From Burkholderiales bacterium (GTDB lineage Bacteria > Pseudomonadota > Gammaproteobacteria > Burkholderiales > SG8-39), in the NCBI GenBank assembly GCA_014860355.1, contig JACZJV010000067.1:1-64000 (forward strand): 64,000 bases of DNA, written 5' to 3'. Of this stretch, positions 5,381 through 19,143 are shown piece by piece; position 1 is the first letter of the stretch, and each line of letters starts with the position of its first letter. The notes below the pieces were generated by a model that saw only the letters and a list, made by a program, of their open reading frames with translations, ran no database searches and was not told the origin of the DNA. The translations under genes and the position numbers were made by a program.

Positions 5381-5735
5381 GCCGGAGCCGCGCAAGCGCC
5401 GGACGCCGTCAGGAACGCCGTCCGCGCGCGACCCATGAGACGGGTCCTGCAGATAGTCCTCGTATCCTGATCCGCCGCGCCAGGCGCCGCGGCACGCCCC
5501 GGATCGCCTACGCCGCGCGCGCTTTTTTCCTCTGGCCGGGTGCATAAACAAAATACTCGCTGCGATATTTCTTAGCCTGTTGAAATTACAGCGCAAACGT
5601 CACCGGGCCGGAAAAAGCGTACAAATAAAATGTACTTCGGCGCCCGCGCGCCGGCCTCGATAGCCGCAACTACCGAACCCTGCCAACAGGATAAGGTATT
5701 GATAAACCAATCTATATCGCTTCCATTGGCGGCGC

Positions 5736-5751
5736 TGGCATGGACGTTGCG
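5736..5751 (+). promoter_or_regulatory. Candidate sigma54 (-24/-12) promoter
   Basis: TGGCATGGACGTTGCG matches TGGCAC-N5-TTGCW with exact GG-N10-GC spacing, 38 nt before ATG of the response regulator at 5789. Confidence 0.7.
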
Positions 5752-5788: not shown

Positions 5789-6250
5789 ATGGACGAGAAG
5801 ACAAGAATCCTGGTAGTCGACGACGAAGAGGTCGTGCGCCTCAGCCATATCAGGACCCTGGCAAGCATCCACTGCAACGTAGAGGTGGTTCGCGATGGTA
5901 GCGAAGCGCTGCGCGTATTGGAGCAGCGGCCGGCCGATGTGGTGCTGCTCGACCTGCGCATGCCCGGAATGGACGGCATGGCAGTGCTGAAGACGATCAA
6001 GCAAAGATGGCCCGAGACCGAGGTGGTCATTATCACCGGGTATCCGACCGTGGAAACGGCGAAAGAAGCGGTCCGCCTGGGTGCGTACGACTATCTCGCC
6101 AAACCGGTGGGCCCCGACGATGTGATCAACGTCGCCAACGGCGCGATGACCCAGAAGAAATGGGCCCTGCACCAGGACCGGACCGAACGAGAAGCGGGGG
6201 TCGGCACGCACACCGATTCCGCACGGAAAACCAGCAATCATTCATATTGA
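5789..6250 (+). CDS. Stand-alone receiver-domain response regulator
   Basis: 153 aa; REC fold ILVVDDEEVVRLS..VVLLDLRMPGMDGM..IITGYPT..YDYLAKPV, no output domain. Confidence 0.92.
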   Translation: MDEKTRILVVDDEEVVRLSHIRTLASIHCNVEVVRDGSEALRVLEQRPADVVLLDLRMPGMDGMAVLKTIKQRWPETEVVIITGYPTVETAKEAVRLGAYDYLAKPVGPDDVINVANGAMTQKKWALHQDRTEREAGVGTHTDSARKTSNHSY

Positions 6251-6265
6251 AACAAGGAGAATGTC

Positions 6266-7057
6266 ATGAGCGCCTTACACAAAGTTCTGGTAGTTGACGA
6301 TGATCCGGTGGTCGGCAAGAGTTTCGACCGGGTGCTTTCAGGAAAAGGCTATGCGGTGATTACGGCCTCCAGCGGACAGGAAGCGCTGAACAAGCTCGAG
6401 ACGGAAAACTATGATGTCGTGTTCACCGACATCAAGATGCCGGGAATGAGCGGCCTCGAAATGGCCGAGCAGGTCAAGCAGCGCCGCCCGTGGCTGCCGG
6501 TGGTCATCGTCACCGGCTATGGCTCGCCCGGCAATGAGGCCAGGGCAGAAGCGGCGGGGGTGTCCGGCTTCCTGCGCAAGCCGCTTTCCCCGGAAATGAT
6601 AGAGGACAGCGCCCTAAAGGCCCTGTCTGAAAAAGGCGCAGCCGCGCCCGGCGCGGAGTCGGCTCCCGCGGTCACGGACGCCGCCGCGATTTCGGCGCAG
6701 AGCACAGTGCAGAATATCGCGCGCGTGGTCAAGAACATCGCCCTGTTCCTGGCAGCGCCGTTCGTCGGGCTCGCCTACATACTGGCCTTCCCGATCGTCG
6801 GCCTGGGCATGCTTGCCTGGATGGGCATCCAGGCGCAAAGGAAGAAGTCCGACGAGGCGGTGAAACTGCAGCCGGCGGCGCCTGCGAAAGCCGGCCTCGT
6901 CAAGAACACCGCGCTGTTCCTCGCGGCACCTTTCATCGGGCTGACCTATATAATCGTCGGACCCATCGTAGGATTGTTCATGCTCGCATGGTTCGCTTTC
7001 CAGGCTTGGAGCAAGCTCGGCACCAAAGCCTTGGCCGGCCGGCCCGAAACAAAGTAA
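6266..7057 (+). CDS. Response regulator receiver domain fused to two repeated hydrophobic hairpins
   Basis: 263 aa; N-terminal REC (VLVVDDDPVVGKS..VFTDIKMPGMSG..LRKPLSP), C-terminal repeats KNIALFLAAPFVGLAYILAFPIVGLGMLAW / KNTALFLAAPFIGLTYIIVGPIVGLFMLAW. Confidence 0.9.
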   Translation: MSALHKVLVVDDDPVVGKSFDRVLSGKGYAVITASSGQEALNKLETENYDVVFTDIKMPGMSGLEMAEQVKQRRPWLPVVIVTGYGSPGNEARAEAAGVSGFLRKPLSPEMIEDSALKALSEKGAAAPGAESAPAVTDAAAISAQSTVQNIARVVKNIALFLAAPFVGLAYILAFPIVGLGMLAWMGIQAQRKKSDEAVKLQPAAPAKAGLVKNTALFLAAPFIGLTYIIVGPIVGLFMLAWFAFQAWSKLGTKALAGRPETK

Positions 7058-7066
7058 CTGAGCACG

Positions 7067-7100
7067 AAAAAAGGGCGGGGGCTCTCCCCGCCCTTTTTTT
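7067..7100. terminator. Bidirectional intrinsic terminator
   Basis: AAAAAAGGGCGGGG-GCTCT-CCCCGCCCTTTTTTT. Confidence 0.9.
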
Positions 7101-7245: not shown

Positions 7246-7884
7246 TTACTTGGCGCCGCCGTGCTCTTCCTCGATTTCCTCGTAGCCGGTCAACATGGAC
7301 TTGATGTGTGCCGTGCGGGTGTGACCGAGGGTCGCGAGGTAGATGTGCATGAATATGAATCCGGAGAAGAAGATGAAAATCAGCACATGCGCGGTGTCCA
7401 CCACCCGCACGCCGCCGAGCAGGTCGATCATGCCGGAAAAGCGCTTGACGTCCCACAGCAGCACCCCGGTCCAGAATTGCAGGGGAACGAGCAGCAGCAT
7501 GATCACCTGGTAGCTCATACTCTGCATCGAGTTGAACTTCTGGTAGACACTGACGTGGTGCGGATTGGGTTCGCCTTTGAAAATGCCGTAGCCGTAAAAC
7601 ATGGCCTGGCGGAAGCTCGCGCGAAAATGCTTCATCGGGCTCAATTCGGGGTGGTACACCCGGATCTTGTCCGAAAACAGGTAGAAAAGCAGCCAGATGA
7701 AGAAATTGCCGATGAGCACAAAACCGATCCAGTCGTGCACGACCACCGCCGTGCGGAACGACATCAGGTCGATCAGCCCGATGTAACGAATCTGAAAGCC
7801 GGTGATGATCATCGCCACGAATCCGAGCGCGTTGATCCAGTGCCAGATCCTGACGGGGAGCGGGTGAACGTAGATTCTTGGCAT
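7246..7884 (-). CDS. Membrane cytochrome b subunit (Ni/Fe-hydrogenase / thiosulfate reductase b-type family)
   Basis: 212 aa; HPLPVRIWHWINALGFVAMIITGFQIRY, several TM helices with conserved His. Confidence 0.88.
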   Translation of the reverse strand: MPRIYVHPLPVRIWHWINALGFVAMIITGFQIRYIGLIDLMSFRTAVVVHDWIGFVLIGNFFIWLLFYLFSDKIRVYHPELSPMKHFRASFRQAMFYGYGIFKGEPNPHHVSVYQKFNSMQSMSYQVIMLLLVPLQFWTGVLLWDVKRFSGMIDLLGGVRVVDTAHVLIFIFFSGFIFMHIYLATLGHTRTAHIKSMLTGYEEIEEEHGGAK

Positions 7885-17518: not shown

Positions 17519-19143
17519 TGATTGCTCCTGGTGCTCTGCGCCTCTGCCGCGGGAGGATGAACGGGAAGATAAATGCGGAAGGTGGACCCGCTTCCAACCG
17601 TGCTTTCCACCTCGATAAGCCCGCCGTGCGCCCTGACGATTCCGTGGCTCACCGACAGCCCCAGCCCCGTGCCCTTGCCCACTTCCTTCGAGGTGAAGAA
17701 CGGATCGAAAATCCGCTTGAGGCTCTTCTCCGGGATTCCGCATCCGGTGTCGATGATCGAGATTTCGACCATTGTCACCGGCTCCATTCCCGGTTCGGGA
17801 CTTTTCGGCCGCGGGCACCGGCCGCTGCGAACGGTAATGCTGCCTTCGTGCTCGATCGCATGCTGGGCGTTGACCAGCATATTCATGATGACCTGTTTGA
17901 TCAGATCGGCGTCGGCCCAGACCCGCGGCAGATCCGGGTCTAGATCCATTGCAATCTCGATATCGCGAAACGACGCAGGCCGTTCGATGATGCGCGCCGT
18001 GTCTTCGATCACCTGGTTGAGGTCGGCGAAATTCTTTTCCGGCGTCTTCTCGCGCGCGAAATCGAGCAGCCTGCGTATGATGGTCGCGCAACGCTTGGTC
18101 TCGCGGATCACCAGATCCAGGTCTTCGGCGTCCGGGGTTCCATCCGGCATTTTCTTTCGCAACAGGGTCGTAAAGGTCAGCACACCGGTGAGCGGGTTGT
18201 TCAACTCATGGGCGATGCCGGCAGCGAGCAAGCCGACCGATGCGAGCTTTTCCGAACGCACCGTTTCAGCTTCGGCTACGCGCAATTCCTGGGTCCTCTT
18301 TTCCACCTTCTGTTCCAGCGTGCGGCCCCAATCGCGCAACTCCGCTTGCGAATTTCGCAGCGCTTCGGTCATGGCGTTGAAGGAAGCGGCGAGCTGGCCG
18401 AATTCGTCCGCGCTGCGCACGGGAATGGTCTGTTCCAGATTCCCCGAGGACAGCCGTTTTGCGCCGGCCTCCAGGTCGCGCAGCGGCACGTAGACCAGGC
18501 GGTGGACAAAGAAACCCACGCTGAGCGCGGCGATGAGGATGAACCCCAATGACAAGCTCGCCATGGCAATGGTGTTGGTCCGCATCTTCCGATCGATATC
18601 ATCGAGCGAATAGACGATGTCGAGCACGCCGAGCACCGACTGGGCTTTGCTGTGCACGTGGCAGTTCGCCGTATAGCACGAGGGTTCGTTGCGGATCACG
18701 TCCATGCTGCCGAGCATGCGCCGCCCACCCGGAGTTGCAAAAATCCGCGAGCGCTGGCTTTGCGCGACCTGCTCCAACGGTGCGTCGCCGCGATGGCAGA
18801 GGACGCAGGCCTCGGCCTTGCGATCCACCTTGAGCCCGAGCTCGGGCAGGTAGGTGGAGTGAATGATGGTACCGTCCTTGCTCAGTATCCGGACTTTTTC
18901 AATGCTCCCCTGGTTGCCCACATCGCGGATGATGCTGTCCACGTAGGTGGGCTGATTCGTGAGCATGGCAAAGCGCGTGCTGTTCTTGATCACATCGGAA
19001 ATCTGGGCGACATGACTTACCGCCTCGCGCAACAGTTCGTCGCGCTGATGGCGCACGACGAGTACGATGAACACCAGCATCGCCAGCGTCAGTGCAAGCG
19101 CCAGATACAGGATGACTTTGAACTTGAGGGTTTTCGCGCGCAT
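17515..19143 (-). CDS. Membrane sensor histidine kinase with periplasmic c-heme motifs
   Basis: 542 aa; CVLCH and CYTANCH motifs, HAMP, HisKA (GIAHELNNPLTGVLTF), ATPase domain; 4-bp overlap with the sigma54 regulator. Confidence 0.94.
   Translation of the reverse strand: MRAKTLKFKVILYLALALTLAMLVFIVLVVRHQRDELLREAVSHVAQISDVIKNSTRFAMLTNQPTYVDSIIRDVGNQGSIEKVRILSKDGTIIHSTYLPELGLKVDRKAEACVLCHRGDAPLEQVAQSQRSRIFATPGGRRMLGSMDVIRNEPSCYTANCHVHSKAQSVLGVLDIVYSLDDIDRKMRTNTIAMASLSLGFILIAALSVGFFVHRLVYVPLRDLEAGAKRLSSGNLEQTIPVRSADEFGQLAASFNAMTEALRNSQAELRDWGRTLEQKVEKRTQELRVAEAETVRSEKLASVGLLAAGIAHELNNPLTGVLTFTTLLRKKMPDGTPDAEDLDLVIRETKRCATIIRRLLDFAREKTPEKNFADLNQVIEDTARIIERPASFRDIEIAMDLDPDLPRVWADADLIKQVIMNMLVNAQHAIEHEGSITVRSGRCPRPKSPEPGMEPVTMVEISIIDTGCGIPEKSLKRIFDPFFTSKEVGKGTGLGLSVSHGIVRAHGGLIEVESTVGSGSTFRIYLPVHPPAAEAQSTRSNQ

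Follow-up and report, generated by a model that had tools for sequence, protein, structure and literature searches.

Introduction

Most response regulators act on DNA or via soluble enzymes and partners. The gene studied here lies in a window of 64,000 nucleotides (the whole stretch of DNA that was analysed) and encodes a receiver (REC) domain followed by two hydrophobic units. It raises the question of what a receiver can do when such units form its C-terminus. A preliminary description of the locus had proposed a receiver that acts at the membrane, for example by modulating a respiratory complex post-translationally, with cytochrome b or NrfD as possible partners. We followed up this proposal by computational analysis of the protein, its relatives, its promoter and its neighbours (Table 1).

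Table 1 Features of the fusion operon and its neighbours in the window.
Feature	Position	Strand	Basis or remark
Upstream activator site (UAS), palindrome GTACA-AATAAAA-TGTAC then TTCG	5619..5639	+	
IHF-like site TAAGGTATTGATA	5692..5704	+	Sequence; consensus YAANNNNTTGATW
Sigma54 −24/−12 promoter TGGCATGGACGTTGCG	5736..5751	+	1% of shuffles reach the score
REC-only response regulator (RR153), operon gene 1	5789..6250	+	PF00072, E 4.5e-30
REC–membrane-unit fusion gene	6266..7057	+	263 aa, ATG start
Receiver domain of the fusion, aa 7–113	6284..6604	+	Pfam PF00072, alignment and fold match
Membrane unit 1, 31-residue uncharged core, aa 158–188	6737..6829	+	
Membrane unit 2, 31-residue uncharged core, aa 215–245	6908..7000	+	
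Intrinsic-terminator-like stem-loop with T run, end of the two-gene operon	7077..7100	+	Consensus match only
Cytochrome b561 (PF01292; related to thiosulfate reductase cytochrome b)	7246..7884	−	
Nonahaem (9 CxxCH) c-type cytochrome, signal peptide and C-terminal hydrophobic segment	7964..9289	−	
Histidine kinase, CYACH and CYQASCH in periplasmic sensor	9532..11508	−	
NtrC-like sigma54 activator (REC-AAA+)	16091..17521	−	
Histidine kinase, CVLCH and CYTANCH sensor (predicted di-haem c)	17515..19143	−	

Results

A complete receiver fused to a predicted membrane repeat

Re-analysis confirmed the open reading frame and coordinates given in the preliminary description, as well as its account of the product as REC plus two similar hydrophobic units with a Lys/Pro/Ala linker. 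A Pfam search placed PF00072 at aa 7–113 of the fusion protein (E 5e-28), and no second Pfam domain was found besides REC. The receiver was modelled by AlphaFold2 at pLDDT about 95, and a Foldseek search gave CheY-like receiver chains as the nearest solved folds (E 4e-12), with receiver domains only among the matches listed. An alignment of 36 relatives showed that D11, D12, D55 and K105 are invariant and T83 nearly so; judged by these conserved active-site residues, the receiver is phosphorylation-competent. It is followed by an Ala/Pro linker, modelled at low confidence by AlphaFold2, that leads to the first hydrophobic unit. The C-terminal 140 residues matched no DNA-binding family in Pfam or NCBIfam, and the C-terminus likewise matched no enzymatic family there, in agreement with the claim that the fusion lacks a DNA-binding or enzymatic output. 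The complete REC active site is shared with CheY-like/single-domain and atypical response regulators, and for the fusion, as for these, an output by protein–protein contact rather than through DNA is expected. Unlike them, the fusion has as its sole output a hydrophobic membrane repeat without a Pfam or NCBIfam match.

Scanning a genome collection with the fusion protein yielded 67 loci, most of which consist of REC plus units at 48–81% identity. About 60 of them are true homologues, nearly all betaproteobacterial and carrying REC with one, two or three units; they come from Rhodoferax, Ramlibacter, Polaromonas, Herbaspirillum, Rubrivivax, Sterolibacterium and other lineages, and the single records under the names Hyphomicrobiales and Chitinophaga are probably binning errors. 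Because the whole fusion gene is conserved across the scanned loci, neither its frame nor its repeat is due to chance, and the same set of about 60 conserved homologues rules out a frame or assembly artefact for the ORF.

Anatomy and predicted topology of the hydrophobic unit

The two units of the fusion are 67% identical over 42 aa (E 6e-18, single comparison) and are separated by a Lys/Pro/Ala-rich linker of 26 residues. Across relatives, the uncharged core measures 31 residues in 94 of 148 units and 32 in a further 22. Counting uncharged cores in a simple way, we find one unit in 14 proteins, two in 37 and three in 11. Each unit is itself an internal repeat, with P-F-(I/V)-G-L occurring twice, 11 residues apart. 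With the first Pro as sole anchor, Pro at +11 is conserved in 99% and Gly at +14 in 96% of 138 units, and conservation of the P, G and L positions of the unit ranges from 96 to 100%. The self-similarity at lag 11 persists without proline (0.6% of column shuffles reach that level). Searched against Pfam, NCBIfam, PHROGs and the sequences of the PDB, the unit matched nothing significantly, which rules out a known domain at the sensitivity of these searches, and in the same collections we found no homology to any membrane-shaping family.

The C-terminus is strongly membrane-seeking, in line with the preliminary description, the membrane location itself being a prediction. Nearly every unit is bordered on either side by net positive charge, and of the 73 linkers between units 70 are net positive. 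By the positive-inside rule, such flanks would leave both ends of each unit on the cytoplasmic side in one-, two- and three-unit proteins, which would suit a re-entrant or hairpin arrangement. AlphaFold2, in contrast, modelled each unit of the fusion as one ~50-residue helix (aa 147–198 and 209–257), with block pLDDT about 75–94 over most of both units; a REC-free relative was modelled at pLDDT 60, a low-confidence result. 'Hairpin' is an interpretation of the unit, favoured by the charge pattern and not by the continuous helices.

Such helices would be natural if each unit were one long transmembrane helix in a tail-anchored receiver without special mechanism, the repeat being drift. We consider an ordinary anchor of this kind quite improbable: two-unit proteins would then expose their strongly positive linkers to the periplasm, the P, G and L positions are conserved beyond the needs of hydrophobicity, and REC-free copies have a dedicated promoter (see below). 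The charge pattern, the conserved Pro/Gly pattern and the co-regulated REC-free copies speak for a role of the units beyond passive anchoring.

Reticulon and caveolin are monotopic hairpin-type proteins. Monotopic hairpin proteins of lipid droplets have about 30 hydrophobic residues and keep both ends on the cytosolic side (PMC12687448). The unit resembles such proteins in its ~30 hydrophobic residues and in the apparently cytosolic position predicted for both ends, and differs from them in being bacterial, tandemly repeated and built on an internal 11-residue P..GL repeat; no sequence relation was detected. By analogy with reticulon and caveolin, the units might be wedge-like hairpins that shape a specialised membrane area for cytochromes, with assembly controlled by phosphorylation. 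The core of near 31 residues with positive charge on both sides, which would leave both ends cytoplasmic whatever the copy number (one to three units), fits this idea, as do the strict Pro/Gly pattern with its 11-residue period and the existence of small co-regulated repeat-only proteins. We nevertheless rate it as unlikely, since AlphaFold2 gives continuous helices instead of hairpins (the REC-free model being of low confidence) and the database searches above found no membrane-shaping family homologous to the unit.

The repeat occurs without the receiver

The repeat is also found in proteins of ~120 aa without REC. Elsewhere in the window's own genome, on a different contig, a second repeat gene encodes 121 residues with two units and no REC. 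REC-free repeat genes are present in many relatives, at the head of the same operon in some (L020, L022, L030, L032 and L049) and elsewhere in others. Some REC-free proteins, that of L127 for example, keep the first and later residues of the receiver with the middle missing, and some REC-free versions (L127, L045) look like internal REC deletions in their sequences. As REC-free genes recur, some as if by deletion inside REC, the repeat appears to be kept without the receiver. Separately, a 64-residue frame (L075; G000:C73:23437-23493, minus strand) holds a partial unit (APFVGLTCVIALPKIGF) and is perhaps a decayed repeat gene.

The unit is narrowly distributed in class-wide and phylum-wide searches. 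Its profile was found in 6 of 399 Burkholderiales genomes; an unrelated frame of 568 residues gave a seventh, marginal match (E 2e-4). In a phylum-wide sample, the profile matched nothing apart from the window's own genome. The preliminary description would have been contradicted by a repeat found only in unrelated contexts. Beyond the fusion, we found it solely in small repeat-only proteins, many of them under the same sigma54/UAS promoter.

A dedicated sigma54/UAS promoter defines a compact regulon

The operon, consisting of the REC-only response regulator and then the REC–membrane regulator, starts 37 bp after a sigma54 element. About 100 bp upstream of this element lies the palindromic UAS, GTACA-N7-TGTACTTC, and between the two is the site that we take to be IHF-like by the consensus YAANNNNTTGATW. 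The arrangement recurs: the sigma54 element precedes the gene by about 50–60 bp in most of 33 homologous loci and stands about 50–65 bp upstream of the dispersed REC-free repeat genes, and GTACTTC is common to 23 of 39 related promoters (the exact palindrome to 7). Many relatives have, at a similar distance, a TTGATA element like the IHF-like site.

We searched 58 system-bearing genomes for the composite pattern GTACTTC-N(88-118)-TGGYAYGN4WTGC and obtained 27 matches (0.47 per genome). All except one are immediately upstream of a repeat gene or of the REC-only gene in the same operon (26/27), stand-alone repeat genes on other contigs included. Five REC-free genes found in this way (L120, L123, L126, L127 and L141) lay outside the set from which the pattern was derived; the other hits are not independent, because the pattern was partly derived from those promoters. 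The window's own genome, at 5.09 Mb, contains exactly two matches, both before repeat genes. We searched 399 Burkholderiales genomes as a negative control: besides those in the window's own genome and in G512, its congener, there were seven matches, about 0.02 per genome. With a slightly looser pattern, we also picked up a further REC-free repeat gene and the gene for a small class-I-like cytochrome c of Herbaspirillum, along with a few matches resembling chance.

The 27th match precedes a gene in G512 for a Tat-type C_GCAxxG_C_C protein (L121; G512:C17, about 9.1–9.4 kb). This Tat-exported protein has two CxxCH motifs, and its gene, under the same UAS–sigma54 promoter and a few kilobases from the G512 fusion gene, is a probable further member of the regulon. 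The Herbaspirillum cytochrome (L154; G583:C39, about 154.8 kb), a 113-aa protein of Herbaspirillum sp. ST 5-3, is encoded some 7 kb from the fusion operon behind a related promoter, and we regard it as a candidate regulon gene. Both additional candidates are thus cytochrome-like. The −24/−12 element and the UAS are common to the members, as in a sigma54-dependent regulon. From its adjacency, the neighbouring NtrC-like protein is assumed to bind the UAS. Because REC-free proteins share the promoter of the fusion, part of the function would need no phosphorylation.

Haem kinases and cytochromes accompany the fusion

Both neighbouring kinases are probably di-haem c sensors, as they carry CxxCH and CxxxxCH motifs in their periplasmic sensors. 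In the kinase at 17515–19143, CVLCH and CYTANCH are both conserved in most of some 40 homologues. This kinase is the presumed partner of the NtrC-like activator, whose true start is probably at MKARILVVDD inside the listed ORF. The c-haem Cache family DUF3365/Tll0287 (sCache_heme) is reported to have NO-sensor-like properties when fused to signalling modules (PMC12889525). Like these sensors, the neighbouring kinases hold CxxCH in a periplasmic Cache-like sensor; unlike them, they have the second motif CxxxxCH, and despite their CxxCH they gave no match to DUF3365 in Pfam even at E 5. One of them matched sCache_3_2 weakly (E 0.21). The kinase at 9532–11508 also has a zinc-ribbon-like insertion of Cys pairs (CPKGH...CPQCN...CPDCG...CTNPEC) between HisKA and the ATPase domain.

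In most relatives, one strand reads REC-only regulator, fusion regulator, nonahaem cytochrome c and b561, and the opposite strand encodes kinase and activator; in the window, the cytochrome genes are convergent to the fusion operon and outside it. A REC-only regulator lies within 0.9 kb upstream of the fusion gene at 51 of 58 loci, and a haem kinase stands beside the fusion at 30 of 37 loci with enough flank. Nine CxxCH motifs are present in 41 of 56 ORFs matching the nonahaem cytochrome. The expected tie to a cytochrome held up: a nonahaem c or b561 gene is near the fusion at 45 of 51 loci with enough flank, and a close cytochrome b (≥60% identity) was found in 5 of 399 Burkholderiales genomes, all five with the repeat. 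The suggestion of NrfD as a general partner did not, with an NrfD/HmcB-like module at only about 8 loci, a count that rules out an NrfD/Hmc complex as an obligate partner in general.

In the window itself, HmcC/NrfD-, HmcB- and TmcA-like genes occupy 11784–14364 on the minus strand. Their presence beside the fusion recalls Hmc-type transmembrane redox complexes; unlike true Hmc/Tmc proteins, their products score well yet fall short of the cut-offs that NCBIfam sets for the proteins of sulfate reducers. The first gene of this cluster (14423–15586, minus strand), conserved at about 9 related loci, encodes REC fused to a glycine-cleavage H-protein domain (lipoyl carrier, GCV_H), an unusual REC output.

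In genome G250, the fusion gene forms a single co-directional operon with the kinase and activator genes, and no b561/nonahaem pair was found in that genome. Because of G250 and the six other loci that lack the pair nearby, the cytochrome pair would not be the only target of the fusion, and its candidacy as sole target is weakened. The minimal G250 operon would also suit a membrane-held phosphate sink or feedback element, in which REC, tethered beside the membrane kinase, draws phosphoryl groups in competition with both the NtrC-like activator and the REC-only regulator, the units just localise it and the cytochromes are just co-regulated. There are indeed several REC proteins per haem kinase, and the fusion gene is itself under a sigma54 promoter, as in a feedback loop. 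Against this, the REC-free repeat proteins are co-regulated, which argues that the repeat does something besides tethering REC, and a tether has no need of a variable copy number. We place the phosphate sink on the improbable side, as a reading that still deserves attention.

Discussion

Collectively, our results describe a response regulator whose output would be a membrane anchor or insertion module. In the model that we tentatively prefer, though we put it somewhat short of an even chance as a whole, one to three 31-residue Pro/Gly-patterned units would hold a phosphorylatable REC at the inner membrane, on its cytoplasmic side. The NtrC-like activator would be controlled by a kinase whose periplasmic sensor bears two c-type haem motifs; together with sigma54, this activator would switch on the REC-only and REC–membrane regulators and, in most relatives, also the nonahaem cytochrome c and b561. 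The same type of promoter would also drive the REC-free membrane-unit genes. Most likely, the units would associate among themselves as well as with electron-transfer proteins of the membrane, in an assembly that may change when the same haem kinases phosphorylate REC, so that the quinone/cytochrome c module is adjusted after translation. Context supports an action of the fusion at the membrane that is tied to respiration, the link to cytochromes resting on gene order, co-occurrence and promoters; from there we infer the modulation of a specific respiratory complex.

A bolder reading is that the fusion represents a new class of response regulator output, a tandemly repeatable Pro/Gly membrane module that also works independently of the receiver, within a haem-kinase/sigma54 regulon dedicated to building or tuning a membrane domain for multihaem cytochromes. 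We hold this to be possible and rather doubtful. If true, the direct target of phosphorylation signalling would be membrane organisation or a respiratory module, and not DNA. What is new here is a response regulator output domain absent from the libraries and literature searched, the REC part being of a known kind: our literature searches found no description of the unit domain or of a membrane-bound response regulator of such kind.

The main new result is the regulatory one, a dedicated sigma54/UAS promoter of the repeat genes. It makes a compact regulon readable from promoters alone, and a family-specific promoter signature of this sort can reveal unannotated small-protein members of a signalling system. 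For multihaem-bearing betaproteobacteria, the locus suggests how, by a route open to testing, a redox signal from periplasmic haem may reach a quinone/cytochrome module without new transcription.
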